A stretch of DNA of 34,707 bases from Phycisphaerales bacterium (GTDB taxonomy: Bacteria > Planctomycetota > Phycisphaerae > Sedimentisphaerales > Anaerobacaceae): assembly GCA_003141275.1 (NCBI GenBank), contig PLLM01000065.1:1-34707 (forward strand), given 5' to 3'. Each line of letters opens with the position of its first letter. Within the stretch, counting starts at the first letter, position 1. Under the pieces are notes generated by a model. That model had not been told where the DNA came from. It did no database searches and worked only from the letters and a program-made list of their open reading frames with translations. Both the position numbers and the translations under genes were made by a program. This document shows, piece by piece, positions 18,063-21,398 of the stretch.

Positions 18063-18085
18063 CGGAAGTATATACCTAACGCACA
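18063..18085 (+). repeat. Left terminal inverted repeat of the transposon
   Basis: 23 bp, perfectly complementary to 20428-20450. If the true end starts at GG (18064), as in many IS1595 members, the repeat is 22 bp. Confidence 0.85.
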
Positions 18086-18125
18086 CTAAAAATCTTACCT
18101 AAACCCCCAAAACCCCTTTTTTAGC

Positions 18126-18278
18126 TTAATTTTGAGGTTTCTTCTTCTTGTCCGGCCAACCTTCGGGCGGCTTTTTCTTCTTAAGTGCTTTATTGACAGC
18201 ACGTTGCCAGTCGCCTTCTATCTTTAAATGGTCGGTTTTAGGGCCTCGTTTTTTGCTTTTATTATTGCTCGTCATCAT
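18126..18278 (-). CDS. Small basic protein (50 aa), transposon passenger
   Basis: An ATG at 18278 (or 18275) with AAGGG 6 nt upstream opens a frame of 50 codons ending in TAA. The product is very basic: KSKKRGPKTDHLKIEGDWQR in the first half, then AVNKALKKKKPPEGWP and a Lys-rich tail. The GPK...LKIEGDW...A..KAL.KK.P..GWP layout resembles small uncharacterised proteins I associate with planctomycetes; this is from memory of the pattern, not a search. There are no cysteines or hydrophobic helix, so it is probably soluble and possibly nucleic-acid binding. It diverges from the winged-helix gene at 18406 and lies 40 bp inside the left transposon end. Confidence 0.65.
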   Translation of the reverse strand: MMTSNNKSKKRGPKTDHLKIEGDWQRAVNKALKKKKPPEGWPDKKKKPQN

Positions 18279-18330
18279 TGCTTACCCTTCACTAATCATT
18301 GCTCTTAAAAATAATTATTTTTTATTGCAA

Positions 18331-18390
18331 AATTGCTTGGCGCAATTACGCAAATATGCTATATATCTTAATGGCTTAATGGCTATATAT
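18331..18390 (+). promoter_or_regulatory. Promoter/operator region of the winged-helix gene
   Basis: TTGGCG (18337-18342) and TATATA (18360-18365) are 17 bp apart. The -35 lies within a perfect inverted repeat AATTGC-ttggc-GCAATT (18331-18347). The -10 lies in GCTATATAT (18358-18366), which is repeated at 18382-18390. The arrangement suggests self-regulation by the winged-helix protein or another repressor. Confidence 0.5.
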
Positions 18391-18405
18391 GAAAGGGCCG
18401 AAATT

Positions 18406-18798
18406 ATGAACAATATACAAGAACAAATCAAGCAAGTCGAGGATAAAGTTAAAGACCTGCGAATCAAGCTTATGATTGAGGAATCTGTATTGAAGCGGTT
18501 AAAAGCCATTGAATCGCCCGAAGAGCCACTCTTGCCGTTATCGGATAATGCCCCTATCCTTACTAATGTCCCCCAGCAAGTGACACAGAGCGGAACGTTA
18601 GTCGCAAATATCAAGGCGGTATTAGCTGAAAATGCAGGGTCGATGCACGTCAAAGATATTCACGAAAAACTTAAAGCAATGAGTATTACAACAGACGCTA
18701 AAGCTGGCTTAGCTGCATCAATCGCTAATGCGTTATTTAGGCGTGAAGATATTTTCCAACGGGTTAGACGTGGTATGTATCGTTTAAGAAATATATAA
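18406..18798 (+). CDS. Coiled-coil plus HARE-HTH-like winged-helix protein, transposon passenger
   Basis: 130 aa from ATG 18406, chosen because AAGGG lies 8 nt upstream; the open frame further upstream crosses the divergent promoter. Residues 1-40 (IQEQIKQVEDKVKDLRIKLM and on) are a charged, probable coiled coil for dimerisation. Residues ~64-130 (VANIKAVLAENAGSMHVKDI, then HEKLKAM and ALFRREDIFQRVRRGMYRL) have the helix-helix-wing layout of the HARE-HTH family of winged helices, which are linked to DNA and chromatin functions. It could regulate the element or modify DNA-related functions. There is no enzymatic domain. The family call is by eye and moderately certain. Confidence 0.65.
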   Translation: MNNIQEQIKQVEDKVKDLRIKLMIEESVLKRLKAIESPEEPLLPLSDNAPILTNVPQQVTQSGTLVANIKAVLAENAGSMHVKDIHEKLKAMSITTDAKAGLAASIANALFRREDIFQRVRRGMYRLRNI

Positions 18799-18803
18799 AA
18801 CCT

Positions 18804-18837
18804 GGGCCAGAGAAGCGCGCCAACGCTTATCTGGCCC
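18804..18837 (+). other. Strong hairpin after the winged-helix gene
   Basis: GGGCCAGA-g-AAGCG, loop cgccaa, CGCTT-a-TCTGGCCC: 13 pairs with one mismatch, 5 nt after the stop codon. No U-tract follows, so it is either an RNA stabiliser/processing stem or a weak terminator. Confidence 0.6.
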
Positions 18838-18945
18838 TAACTTAAGGATAACCAAAATGTTTGTCGTTTGCACGGACGCACATGTAATTGATTACCCTAT
18901 ATTTGCAATCCTACCGATTCCACCACCACGGGTCAAGCCCAAAAT

Positions 18946-18985
18946 AGGCCCCCAAGTTAACATTTTGCGATGCGCTTGGGGGCCT
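18946..18985 (+). other. Hairpin immediately upstream of the tRNA
   Basis: An 11-bp perfect stem (AGGCCCCCAAG and complement) with an 18-nt loop ends 8 nt before the tRNA 5' end. It could be a terminator for upstream transcription (TTATCTCTT follows) or a processing stem of the tRNA precursor. Confidence 0.55.
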
Positions 18986-18993
18986 TATCTCTT

Positions 18994-19076
18994 GCGGGAA
19001 TGACGAAACGGCAAACGTGCCAGCGTTGGATGCTGGTGGGCGATTGCCCTTCTGGGTTCGAGTCCCAGTTCCCGCA
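18994..19076 (+). tRNA. Class II tRNA, leucine-like body with UGG anticodon
   Basis: 83 nt, all stems fully paired: acceptor GCGGGAA/TTCCCGC, D-stem ACG/CGT, anticodon stem CCAGC/GCTGG, variable arm GGGC-GATT-GCCC, T-stem CTGGG/CCCAG. Invariant positions are present: T8, A14, G18 G19, A21, T33, TTCGAGT T-loop and a T48 partner for A15. The long variable arm and A73 are leucine-type; serine tRNAs have G73. The anticodon loop is GTTGGAT, which places TGG at 34-36, complementary to the proline codon CCA. G32 and T38 are also unusual. CCA is not encoded. It lies inside the transposon between the winged-helix gene and the 40-aa gene. An automated call would probably be tRNA-Pro(TGG) or undetermined. 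Confidence 0.85.
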
Positions 19077-19092
19077 TTGACTTCTGGCAGAA

Positions 19093-19140
19093 CGGAATGA
19101 CCAGAAATCCAAGTGCAAAATCTATTCCGGACTTTTTTTT
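19093..19140 (+). terminator. Possible terminator after the tRNA
   Basis: CGGAAT (19093-19098) pairs with ATTCCG (19124-19129), followed by GAC and eight T residues (19133-19140). The 25-nt loop is long. A competing TTCTGG/CCAGAA stem lies at 19082-19106. It could also act as an attenuator in front of the 40-aa gene. Confidence 0.45.
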
Positions 19141-19152
19141 AAGGAGCTTACT

Positions 19153-19275
19153 ATGATAAGCTCAAAAAAGGAAGGCCATTGGGTTTATACGACCCATATT
19201 ACTCTGCGTAACGGCAGAGTGATATACGCTTCCAGCTATGGTAAGCGGGCCTTTAGAATTTGGGTAAAATCCTAA
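19153..19275 (+). CDS. Small protein (40 aa), transposon passenger
   Basis: The ATG at 19153 follows a perfect AAGGAG by 7 nt. The frame encodes MISSKKEGHWVYTTHITLRN, then GRVIYASSYGKRAFRIWVKS, and ends in TAA. The Y-T-T-H-I-T-L-R-N-G-R-V-I-Y-A...GK-AF layout looks like a small beta-hairpin protein with a basic, aromatic end; I do not recognise a named family. The coding region itself contains three consecutive hairpins (19179-19195, 19201-19220, 19252-19283), the last spanning the stop codon, so the RNA may have its own role. A strong terminator follows. It lies downstream of the tRNA and convergent with the transposase gene. Confidence 0.65.
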   Translation: MISSKKEGHWVYTTHITLRNGRVIYASSYGKRAFRIWVKS

Positions 19276-19288
19276 ATTCTAAACTGCA

Positions 19289-19333
19289 ACAGTCCCGACT
19301 GGGGTTCACGGCCTCAGTCGGGCTGTTTATTTT
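19289..19333 (+). terminator. Rho-independent terminator of the passenger unit
   Basis: ACAG-t-CCCGACTG, a 13-nt loop, CAGTCGGG-CTGT, then TTATTTT. The 12-bp stem has one bulge. It separates the plus-strand passenger genes from the convergent transposase gene. Confidence 0.8.
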
Positions 19334-19390
19334 GTCGGCCCCTTAACGTTTGTCCCTTGACAGTTTTTGGCTATATTCACTTTTCAAAGA

Positions 19391-20350
19391 TTATGCAGAA
19401 CGGCGTATTGGTTCCCGGTAAGTTAGACGTTTACCCTCCGCCCCCTTGATTGCCTTTGTGATGCGTTCCCCATCGTTTAATTTTCGGGTATCCCATCGAA
19501 ACCCAAATTCAGAAACGTAACGATGCAGGTGTCTTTTGCTTACGGAATGATATGTACCATACAAACCTCTTTTAAGACGTGCAAAGAAGCTCTCCGCCGT
19601 GTTGGTATAAATGTCACCTCGAACGTATTCCCGGCGGCTGTGGCATACTTTTTCGTGTCCGCCCCAAAATACGTTTGTAGCGTTATTATAAAGAGGACTT
19701 TCGTCGGTGATGATTCTTGATGATAACTTAACCTCTTTTCGCAATTCAGTTTTTAACGCTGCGGCGGTTACGTTCGGAATAACGCGCGTCCTAACGCCGC
19801 CATTGCGTTCAACCAAAGCAATCACGGGCGTTTTTGGTGTGCCGCGTCCTCGCAAACTTACCCCGCGAAAGCGCGGCTTGCCGCCTACATACGTTTCGTC
19901 CGCCTCAATCGTGCCTTGCAGCTTTTCTTGCTGTTCTGGCGCAGTCATTGCATAGCGGATGCGGTGCATAATAAACAAAGCTGTTTTGTAAGTTACGCCG
20001 CACTCTCGCCTAATCTGTAAAGCACTTACGCCATTCTTAGAGGAGCAAGCTGCCCAAAAAGCGTGACACCATATTTTAAGCGGCACTCGTGAATCCTCAA
20101 AAACCGTGTCGATGCGAACAGTGTATTGTTTCCTACAATCTAAATCGTGGCAACGCCAAAGGAATCTTTTATTTCGTCCGCCGCTCTTGTCTTTCATTTT
20201 AGATACTTCGATACTGCCGCAATGGGGGCAAGCCGGGTGCTTATCCCAATCCCGCTGTTTTTCCATAAACTCCACAGCCGCCGTTTCGTCCAAGCAAGCT
20301 AATGGCAATTCGCTTACGACCTTATCGATATTTTCAACTTTCTTCTTCAT
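19391..20350 (-). CDS. IS1595-family (ISXO2-like) transposase
   Basis: 319 aa, normal family length. The N-terminus has a zinc ribbon (CPHCGS at ~41-46, WRCHDLDCRKQYT ~25 residues later) and the family's TVFEDSRVPLKIW block. An HTH-like stretch (VSALQIRRECGVTYKTALFI) follows. The DDE/N nuclease domain shows IEADETYVGGK (first Asp), IITDESPLYNN (second Asp) and TNTAESFFARLKRGLYGTYH (third acidic/Asn region). All key residues are present and there is no frameshift, so it may be active. It cuts and joins DNA at the 23-bp ends. The gene has a near-consensus promoter 7 nt upstream of its ATG. Confidence 0.93.
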   Translation of the reverse strand: MKKKVENIDKVVSELPLACLDETAAVEFMEKQRDWDKHPACPHCGSIEVSKMKDKSGGRNKRFLWRCHDLDCRKQYTVRIDTVFEDSRVPLKIWCHAFWAACSSKNGVSALQIRRECGVTYKTALFIMHRIRYAMTAPEQQEKLQGTIEADETYVGGKPRFRGVSLRGRGTPKTPVIALVERNGGVRTRVIPNVTAAALKTELRKEVKLSSRIITDESPLYNNATNVFWGGHEKVCHSRREYVRGDIYTNTAESFFARLKRGLYGTYHSVSKRHLHRYVSEFGFRWDTRKLNDGERITKAIKGAEGKRLTYREPIRRSA

Positions 20351-20356
20351 AGAAGC

Positions 20357-20384
20357 ATTATAACGCTTGACCTCTGTGTGTCAA
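20357..20384 (-). promoter_or_regulatory. Consensus promoter of a probably leaderless transposase mRNA
   Basis: On the minus strand TTGACA (20384-20379) and TATAAT (20362-20357) are 16 bp apart, both perfect. Only 6 nt separate the -10 from the ATG at 20350 and no Shine-Dalgarno is present. CTTGAC/GTCAAG inverted repeats overlap the -35 and spacer and may be an operator. Confidence 0.75.
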
Positions 20385-20427
20385 GTATAAAATTATTATT
20401 TTTGTAAATTATTTTAGCCCCATTTCT

Positions 20428-20450
20428 TGTGCGTTAGGTATATACTTCCG
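20428..20450 (-). repeat. Right terminal inverted repeat of the transposon
   Basis: Perfect 23-bp complement of 18063-18085. Confidence 0.85.
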
Positions 20451-20625
20451 CCCTGTTTTTACGCCAAAAACCACCCGATTTTCGACTATAAACAGGCCAA
20501 TTTTTGAGATAAATAACGTTGGTTTTACCTCATCAACTTGCCAAGTAAGTCCTATAAAATGCTTTATGGTCTTATAAATACATATACTTGACTTTTGTAT
20601 CTCAAACCTAGTGTCCAAAACAAAT

Positions 20626-20691
20626 GTTTTATACAACTGTTTCATACAACTGTTTTATACTATTGTATGAAACAAGCGTTTTATACAAGTG
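20626..20691 (+). promoter_or_regulatory. Array of five 13-bp operator-like repeats upstream of the TetR gene
   Basis: Units start at 20626, 20639, 20652, 20665 and 20678, an exact 13-bp period. Four read GTTTTATACAACT or close variants; the fourth (20665) reads GTATGAAACAAGC and is in part the reverse complement of the others. TTTCATACA (20640-20648) and TGTATGAAA (20664-20672) form a perfect 9-bp inverted repeat. This is most likely the operator of the TetR-type repressor encoded 30 bp downstream. Confidence 0.7.
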
Positions 20692-20720
20692 TTTAAAATG
20701 AGCGATTTAAGGAAATAGCT

Positions 20721-21398
20721 ATGACCGGTTTGGACATCCGAAATATGCCTGATTCAACAAAAGAGGCCCGAATAACACGACATCGGCTGCTGACAGCCGC
20801 CGAAGAGATGTTCGCTCAAAAGGGTTTTGACGGAACCGCAATTCGAGATATTACCACAAAAGCAAGACGTAATCCCGCGGCCGTAAATTACTTTTTCGGC
20901 GACAAACGCGAGCTTTACGAGGAGTTGTTCCGATTGCGTCTTCGTGAGATGAATGAGAGCCGGCTTAACGCCATCAAGACCATTATGAGCGACAAGAGTA
21001 AACTGACGCTCGAAAAATTACTTTACGCATACTCGGTTGATTTTCTCAAGCCGTTCGCAGACCCGCAGCAAAGCCAGCGATTTATGCAGCTTTTATTTCG
21101 GGAAATGGCGGAGCAGCGGCTGCCCAGAAATATGTTTCTCGATGAACTGGCTGCCCCGACACTAACCGCAATGGAAGAGGCAATAGTTGTTATTTGTCCT
21201 GACATCAATGAACACGATGCCATGATGTGCACCATTTCACTAAACGGCCAACTGGTTCATATTATGCAGGTCAGGGTGTTGTTCGAAGGGGCGCAAGGCC
21301 ATTCAATCACATCGATTAATATCGATGAGTCAATAGACCATATAGTCAAATTATCGGCGGCCGGAATCAGGGCTTACGCCAAAAGGGACAAGAAATGA
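20721..21398 (+). CDS. TetR-family transcriptional repressor of the efflux operon
   Basis: 225 aa. Residues ~15-65 are the TetR helix-turn-helix: ARITRHRLLTAAEEMFAQKG, then FDGTAIRDITTKA and NPAAVNYFFGDKRELYEELF. The C-terminal ligand/dimer domain (~85-220) contains a QRFMQLLFREMAEQRLP segment as in CerR-like TetR proteins. AAGGA lies 9 nt before the ATG. It begins a four-gene operon in which each of the three downstream genes starts with an ATGA overlap. It probably represses its own promoter through the 13-bp repeats at 20626-20691 and is released by a drug-like ligand. The ligand is unknown. Confidence 0.9.
   Translation: MTGLDIRNMPDSTKEARITRHRLLTAAEEMFAQKGFDGTAIRDITTKARRNPAAVNYFFGDKRELYEELFRLRLREMNESRLNAIKTIMSDKSKLTLEKLLYAYSVDFLKPFADPQQSQRFMQLLFREMAEQRLPRNMFLDELAAPTLTAMEEAIVVICPDINEHDAMMCTISLNGQLVHIMQVRVLFEGAQGHSITSINIDESIDHIVKLSAAGIRAYAKRDKK

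Follow-up and report, generated by a model that had tools for sequence, protein, structure and literature searches.

The window analysed here is a stretch of 34,707 nucleotides from a Phycisphaerales bacterium. Between positions 18063 and 20450 it contains an IS1595-family transposon of ~2.4 kb, bounded by perfect 23-bp terminal inverted repeats. Its features are as follows:

18063..18085, + strand: left terminal inverted repeat (CGGAAGTATATAC type), perfect over 23 bp
18126..18278, - strand: sm1, a 50-aa basic protein present in most elements of the window branch
18406..18798, + strand: winged-helix-like protein of 130 aa, a possible regulator with a weak HARE-HTH match
18804..18837, + strand: hairpin 1, before the leader, read from the sequence and conserved in other copies
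18857..19003, + strand: leader ORF ending within the tRNA, with CCA CCA CCA (Pro-Pro-Pro) at 18920-18928
18947..18984, + strand: hairpin 2, read from the sequence, directly before the tRNA, where other copies also have a hairpin
18994..19076, + strand: candidate missense tRNA with a leucine-type body (type II, A73) and anticodon UGG
19153..19275, + strand: sm2, a 40-aa protein with a homologue in locus L045
19391..20350, - strand: intact IS1595 transposase of 319 aa (DDE_Tnp_IS1595 and Zn_ribbon_IS1595)
20357..20384, - strand: transposase promoter TTGACA-16-TATAAT, a perfect -35/-10 pair (12/12)
20428..20450, - strand: right terminal inverted repeat, perfect over 23 bp

The inverted repeats are those named in the original prediction, and the match between the two ends extends to 28 nt at 93%. 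The host carries the element as one copy. Two congeneric genomes (G024 and G026) have an empty site, with contiguous flanks and the 2.4 kb absent, and relatives from several phyla carry a module of this kind, enclosed by ends of the same type, at other sites. An 8-bp target duplication is typical of the IS1595 family. None flanks the window copy. When 32 loci with a tRNA were tested, 17 showed perfect 8-bp duplications enclosing the tRNA; perfect ones were also present at 5 of 12 other loci. The window element is thus mobile, and its recurrence bears out the earlier view of a selected module that is more than a simple insertion sequence. A search of plasmids returned only transposases of <60% identity, and close relatives were few or absent both in searches of the phylum's other classes and in three of the viral scans. 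From 23 pattern matches, the 9 that had no ARAGORN tRNA were left out. At L069, L078, L079 and L081 a tRNA is present, with no transposase or sm1 match found (the acceptor stems of L078 and L079 are imperfect by eye), while L072 and L068 have no transposase match yet retain sm1 or one transposon end.

The transposase is intact, as had been claimed, and both of its domains score above their curated cut-offs (DDE_Tnp_IS1595, PF12762, ISXO2-like, E 1.5e-36; Zn_ribbon_IS1595, PF12760, E 1.8e-8). The two small genes are likewise present. The proposed winged-helix DNA-binding protein holds up as an ORF on the + strand; its HARE-HTH match (E 0.0015) lies below the Pfam cut-off, as does that of its L071 homologue (24.8 bits versus a cut-off of 25.9). 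The element has a promoter of its own for the transposase, and the terminators proposed alongside it are not in excess (three terminator-like sites found versus 3.1 expected from shuffles). A weak lysine-riboswitch match within the transposase, below the gathering score, was set aside.

The tRNA anticipated from the sequence lies at 18994-19076 and scores 50.2 bits. Its anticodon, UGG, reads the proline codon CCA, and ARAGORN labels it tRNA-Pro. We rejected this label because the body carries leucine identity: a long variable arm together with A73, A14, A15-U48 and U8:A14. In E. coli, leucine identity resides in A73, A15-U48, G18G19 and A20a and not in the anticodon (PMC9976931). The window tRNA matches the host tRNA-Leu(GAG) at 75% identity and the best-scoring host tRNA-Pro at 60%, and does not have the type I body with C1-G72 of the host Pro tRNAs. 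Among 36 element tRNAs, A14 and A15 are found in all 36, U8 in 35, U48 in 34 and A73 in 34 (the remaining two, from L072 and L235, had coordinates one base off), and C1-G72 in only 1. Leucine-type tRNAs of related elements have the anticodons UGG, AGG, UGC or UUA. Judged by these determinants, divergent relatives have all kept a leucine-type body together with a proline anticodon. We rejected capture of a host tRNA by a plain insertion sequence, since the tRNA comes on top of a full host set (three Pro tRNAs, including tRNA-Pro(UGG), and five Leu tRNAs).

The cognate codon of this anticodon occupies three positions in the transposase, which we term lock codons:

20303..20305, - strand: lock codon site 1, CCA, residue 16
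19937..19939, - strand: lock codon site 2, CCA, residue 138 (loosely defined, as the first Pro 2-4 residues past the residue aligned to M135)
19409..19411, - strand: lock codon site 3, CCA, residue 314

Across the transposases of 25 UGG elements, CCA accounts for 51 of 55 Pro codons at the three sites versus 36 of 230 elsewhere (p 7e-28). The sites were defined on the first 17 of these (38/39 versus 24/146); the other 8, which include L109 and L377, both scanned for a tRNA owing to their site CCA, give 13/16 versus 12/84 (p 3e-7). Both scanned loci proved to have UGG tRNAs overlooked by the first scans. For the 132 transposases without a detected tRNA, a class that hinges on the flank length held by each locus, the counts are 14/60 at the sites versus 153/1156 elsewhere, and for 8 transposases with other anticodons CCA is found in 0/6. 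ARAGORN and our own scan overlook very long variable arms; cmscan (E-value mode) was run on 32 of the loci without a detected tRNA. Four elements were fetched purely by transposase similarity: three have site CCA and a UGG tRNA, and one has neither. CCA away from the lock sites is not avoided overall.

Some other anticodons show related behavior. In L265, with an AGG tRNA, the only two CCT codons among 16 Pro codons fall at sites 2 and 3. GCA occupies window column 101, a column picked after looking, in 3/3 UGC elements versus 0/18 of the other tRNA-bearing transposases with Ala there. Exceptions were also found: the UGG element L204 has no CCA at the lock sites, L245 has an AGG anticodon but CCC at site 1, neither Ser-body nor GGA elements have a comparable codon coupling, and no in-frame UAA lies within the transposase of L199, whose anticodon is UUA. 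In the sm1 of UGG elements, a single GP site has CCA in 13/20, which is not exclusive; fixation of CCA in this gene was tested and is unsupported. Use of the tRNA-cognate codon in the element's own genes is non-random, and codon choice at up to three transposase sites is fixed to triplets cognate to the element tRNA. The original reading of a single mobile element with a selected module stands; what it missed is that the tRNA pairs a leucine-type body with a proline anticodon and that fixed transposase sites hold the cognate codons. Its description as self-maintaining fits insofar as transposase and tRNA are coupled.

Could this coupling be historical linkage only, with tRNA and CCA sites co-inherited and the codons fixed by drift or by a DNA or mRNA constraint, with no functional decoding? 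Shared ancestry explains part of it: the UGG elements are related, and eight independent pairs on supported branches gave 5.1 in the expected direction and 0.0 in the opposite one, with a median p of just 0.0625. At site 1, four transposases (L102, L104, L236 and L248) use CCA with no tRNA found, as linkage would also allow. Yet codons adjoining the lock sites vary synonymously and the Pro codon alone is fixed, the AGG tRNA goes with CCT at the same sites, the tree's two main branches both show the site 2 pattern, and contrary pairs are absent. We therefore consider linkage as the whole explanation unlikely.

Slightly less likely still is that the tRNA is charged with proline after all, ProRS reading G35, G36 and A73, so that an odd extra tRNA-Pro aids translation of the element's CCA codons with no recoding. 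The anticodon itself favors this reading, as does the retention of Pro at site 1 via other codons in relatives without a UGG tRNA. Five window-branch transposases outside the UGG set (L199, L237, L200, L245 and L110) do so, and the proline form of the transposase is for this reason probably viable. Proline charging sits poorly, however, with a leucine-type body and identity set that almost never includes C1-G72, with leucine bodies in the UGC, UUA and AGG relatives, with CCA enrichment limited to three sites and not gene-wide, and with a host tRNA-Pro(UGG) that already reads CCA.

We instead favor, with moderate confidence, an IS1595-family transposon with its own missense tRNA that re-decodes lock codons in the transposase it encodes and so acts as either licence or brake. 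Since the anticodon is ignored by bacterial LeuRS, we infer that the host leucyl-tRNA synthetase charges the element tRNA. At CCA codons this tRNA would compete with host tRNA-Pro(UGG), placing leucine at the lock sites in part of the transposase molecules; counting against this, the host tRNA has to compete at every CCA. Transposition would then depend on the tRNA, with either sign. The residue at site 3 in the wider family is most often Leu, which would fit a licence, the leucine form being the working enzyme. Under a dosage brake the leucine form would be defective, so that more copies would mean more tRNA and less active enzyme. Either way, the coupling suggests that the element privately alters the reading of its own enzyme.

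The leader upstream of the tRNA may add a further layer. Leaders in L063, L064 and L066 contain RAPP, others have PPP variants, and the window has IPPP. In the PP/PPP run of seven leaders followed by a tRNA, CCA makes up 13 of 18 Pro codons versus 0/3 in one leader without a tRNA (counted by eye). Known RAPP-type ribosome arrest peptides are described as lying upstream of protein-localisation genes (PMC12992588; PMC10951233). The element leaders share the motif but precede a tRNA gene, and arrest here is putative, from the motif. In planctomycete copies, tRNA level would probably feed back on its own expression through this CCA-rich leader peptide, the weakest step of the scheme. Defence-like neighbours lie beside the same leader in G024, and the cargo of L044 includes an antitoxin-like Panacea protein.

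In its fullest form, our proposal is that the transposon has privatised a sense codon, through a leucine-charged missense tRNA for CCA (CCU, GCA or UAA in sister elements) and fixed lock sites, and that the share of transposase decoded with leucine, which tRNA dosage sets and a CCA-containing arrest leader tunes, decides movement. We hold this version tentatively, as quite possible. That leucine at CCA instead harms phage or host proteins, as a toxin-like or defence device in which the transposase sites merely protect or tune the element, would suit the regulated-looking leader with its arrest motif and the neighbours and cargo just described, but is very unlikely given that CCA fixation at few transposase sites suggests the transposase as target and that the elements read have no common defence cargo.

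Parts of this arrangement have precedents. IS1595 elements share the two transposase domains, the terminal inverted repeats and the 8-bp duplications (in relatives of the window element), to which the window element adds a candidate missense tRNA and a codon-locked transposase; in the literature as far as it was covered, no IS1595 element with a tRNA and passengers was found. Allo-tRNAs (Mukai et al. 2017), as described in a review (PMC7609411), also combine disagreeing bodies and anticodons, with many anticodons and hosts including Acidobacteria and Proteobacteria; the review notes one pseudogene overlapping a transposon-related ORF and proposes a connection with transposable elements. They are, in that text, tRNAs with 8/4 or 9/3 acceptor/T stems and Ser (or Ala) identity. 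Element tRNAs, in contrast, have 7/5 stems and Leu identity, are located between transposon ends and show coupling to transposase codons. We rejected this class for the window tRNA on its 7/5 pairing, A73 and G3-C70 (not the Ala G3-U70). Phage-encoded suppressor tRNAs recode stop codons in phage genes (PMC9523058), and likewise have a mobile element supply a tRNA that alters the reading of its own genes. Here, in contrast, the codons are mostly sense (Pro) codons at few fixed sites in one gene of a 2-4 kb transposon. L199 is the single element whose anticodon would read UAA; in the window, UGG reads sense codons and no stop lies within the transposase. As far as our searches show, the combination is without precedent.

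If correct, this would be a natural, recurrent bacterial case of a mobile element creating its own sense-codon ambiguity, with a key enzyme built around it. Selection for codon ambiguity, a long-standing question, would become testable at the bench, transposition would gain an additional mode of control, some mismatched metagenomic tRNAs would be explained, and the elements would be a source of ready-made Leu-type missense tRNAs. As to the host manipulation suggested originally, an active tRNA would inevitably also place leucine at CCA codons of host genes; in the 24 host ORFs of the window, CCA makes up 59 of 435 Pro codons.

The IS1595-family element is bounded by perfect 23-bp ends (18063-20450 of the window) and is present as a single copy in the 3.05-Mb host genome. 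From left to right, it carries:

sm1, a 50-aa basic protein (-)
a winged-helix-like protein of 130 aa (+)
a hairpin
a leader ORF with three consecutive CCA codons, between this hairpin and the next
a second hairpin
18994-19076, a tRNA, to the right of the second hairpin
sm2, a 40-aa protein (+)
the IS1595 transposase (-), with a consensus promoter in front

In two congeneric genomes (G026 and G024), which share 2.4 kb of flank homology at 83%, the element is absent between contiguous flanks. An 8-bp duplication is not present at the window copy. Near the insertion, at 20608-20694, a direct repeat with 13-bp spacing occurs in five overlapping copies upstream of a presumably TetR-like gene (20721-21398); these are perhaps its operators.

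The window tRNA is a chimera, combining a leucine-type body with a proline anticodon, from which ARAGORN derives its proline label. The body belongs to type II; its acceptor stem has 7 bp, and it carries A73, A14, A15, and U48. Among the host tRNAs, Leu(GAG) is the most similar (75% identity), and the best-scoring proline tRNA reaches 60%. The host has ordinary proline tRNAs (UGG, CGG, and GGG) and five leucine tRNAs. Across 36 element tRNAs, A14 and A15 are invariant, U8 is found in 35, U48 in 34, and A73 in 34 (the coordinates of the L072 and L235 tRNAs are one base off); C1-G72 occurs in one, and 591/612 stem pairs are standard. In E. coli, leucine identity is described as residing in A73, A15-U48, G18G19, and A20a, with the anticodon unused (review, PMC9976931). 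Besides UGG, leucine-type tRNAs at related loci carry the anticodons AGG (L118/L265, L245), UGC (L202, L205, L243), UUA (L199, L323), and GGA (L250).

While seeking recoding in the transposases of the first 17 elements with a UGG leucine-type tRNA (UGG elements), we identified three alignment sites, at window residues 16, 138, and 314 (sites 1-3), where proline is nearly always encoded by CCA, the codon read by UGG; this was not so at other proline positions. Our final count comprised 25 UGG transposases, 132 relatives in which no tRNA was detected, eight with other anticodons, and two with AGG. In the UGG transposases, CCA encodes 51/55 site prolines versus 36/230 others (Fisher p 7e-28), split between the 17 discovery sequences (38/39 at sites, 24/146 elsewhere) and the eight later additions (13/16 and 12/84, p 2.7e-7). 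The corresponding counts are 14/60 and 153/1156 without a detected tRNA, and 0/6 and 14/71 with other anticodons. Off-site, the UGG transposases show no overall CCA avoidance (16% versus 13% in relatives). The L265 element (AGG) uses CCT for two of its 16 prolines, exactly at sites 2 and 3; in the other AGG element, L245, the site 1 codon is CCC and sites 2 and 3 hold no proline. At window column 101, chosen after looking, GCA is found in 3/3 UGC elements and in 0/18 other tRNA-bearing transposases with alanine there. Two transposases accompanied by a UGG tRNA (G236:C50, L196; G424:C1, L198) each contain one in-frame TAA or TAG and are probably decayed copies.

The two main branches of the transposase tree each contain UGG elements, but these are related. 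When only supported branches are used, there are eight independent pairs, of which 5.1 agree with expectation and 0.0 run opposite, for a median p of 0.0625. Thus, fixation of CCA at the three sites is clear, and the phylogenetically independent share of the coupling is suggestive.

Codons also pointed to tRNAs. L109 and L377 carry CCA at the sites, yet ARAGORN and our own scan missed a UGG tRNA; Infernal in E-value mode recovered in each a leucine-type UGG tRNA whose variable arm is very long, and none in the other five of the seven loci of this kind that were scanned (L102, L104, L236, L248, L257). Among four elements obtained by transposase similarity alone, three (L377-L379) have both site CCA and a UGG tRNA, and L376 has neither. 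A DUF3800-VII RNA (Rfam RF02967, 62.5 bits; L376:4224-4311) lies 38 bp behind the L376 transposase, where a tRNA is absent.

Leucine at the sites could either license transposition, if the leucine form works, or act as a brake, if it is defective. At site 3, leucine is the commonest residue in transposases without a detected tRNA (42/115), belonging in distant members to the motif Y-[KR]-[ED]-L-[IV]. Site 1 lies inside a predicted helix (residues 10-20), and phenylalanine is commonest there in those same tRNA-less relatives (26/112). Because elements without a UGG tRNA encode proline with other codons at site 2, as they also do at site 1 within this branch, the proline form is probably viable.

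By DNA similarity, pieces of the module were found in 7/89 family genomes, counting the host, and a tRNA pattern search of the order found it in 8/161. A similar pattern across 84,980 species matched 23 stretches, and ARAGORN identified UGG tRNAs in 14 of them; nine of these 14 have an IS1595 transposase or remnant nearby, and ten a transposase or sm1. The matches come from MAGs whose titles name Phycisphaerae, Sedimentisphaerales, Planctomycetia, Acidobacteriaceae, Proteobacteria, and other taxa. Searching genomes and viral contigs with the transposase yielded more copies. Matching ends and a perfect 8-bp duplication enclose the tRNA at 17 of 32 tRNA-bearing loci tested; by eye L197, misplaced by our script, is an 18th, with GTTCTAGAAC flanking both sides. 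Matching ends with a duplication were found at 5/12 loci without a detected tRNA.

In seven planctomycete copies (window, L060, L063, L064, L066, L068, L071), the tRNA is preceded by a RAPP/PPP leader ORF between two hairpins. The RAPP motif is described as a cause of ribosome arrest (PMC12992588). By eye, 13/18 proline codons in the motif runs of these leaders are CCA. A hairpin 1 and leader ORF (AILPRPPPKVK, codons CCT CCT CCG) closely resembling those of the window occur in G024 (L046:1590-1830) without tRNA or transposase, indicating that the leader is a separate module; it adjoins a downstream operon that, from the look of its sequences, we take to be a ubiquitin-like/E1-like gene set. 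The window leader ORF terminates within the tRNA: an arrested ribosome would leave the tRNA intact, and one that is not arrested would run into it, from which we infer a possible negative feedback on the tRNA. In elements of other lineages, a hairpin stands ahead of the tRNA, but we found no clear leader.

In searches of open-licence PMC papers, with hits judged by their titles and the opening of their abstracts, no transposon encoding a missense tRNA came up. The closest known systems, as they are described, are allo-tRNAs (PMC7609411) and phage stop-codon recoding.

Several related loci carry further tRNA-like sequences or cargo. The UUA tRNA of L199 (5198-5282), whose anticodon would read the stop codon UAA, belongs to an element that has perfect ends and a target duplication, and a second tRNA-like sequence adjoins this tRNA downstream. 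By eye, another, with acceptor and T-stem and without a normal anticodon arm, lies just upstream of the UGG tRNA in L076 (2741-2825, -). Ser-like tRNA bodies reminiscent of allo-tRNAs are found near IS1595 transposases at L208:3739-3823 (UAC, Val) and L256:1919-2014 (UAU, Ile); codon coupling was not seen for these two. Cargo includes a Panacea-domain (SocA antitoxin-like) protein (L044:6885-7478, E 2.7e-19) and, by a weak match, a retropepsin-like aspartyl protease (L045:5708-6211).
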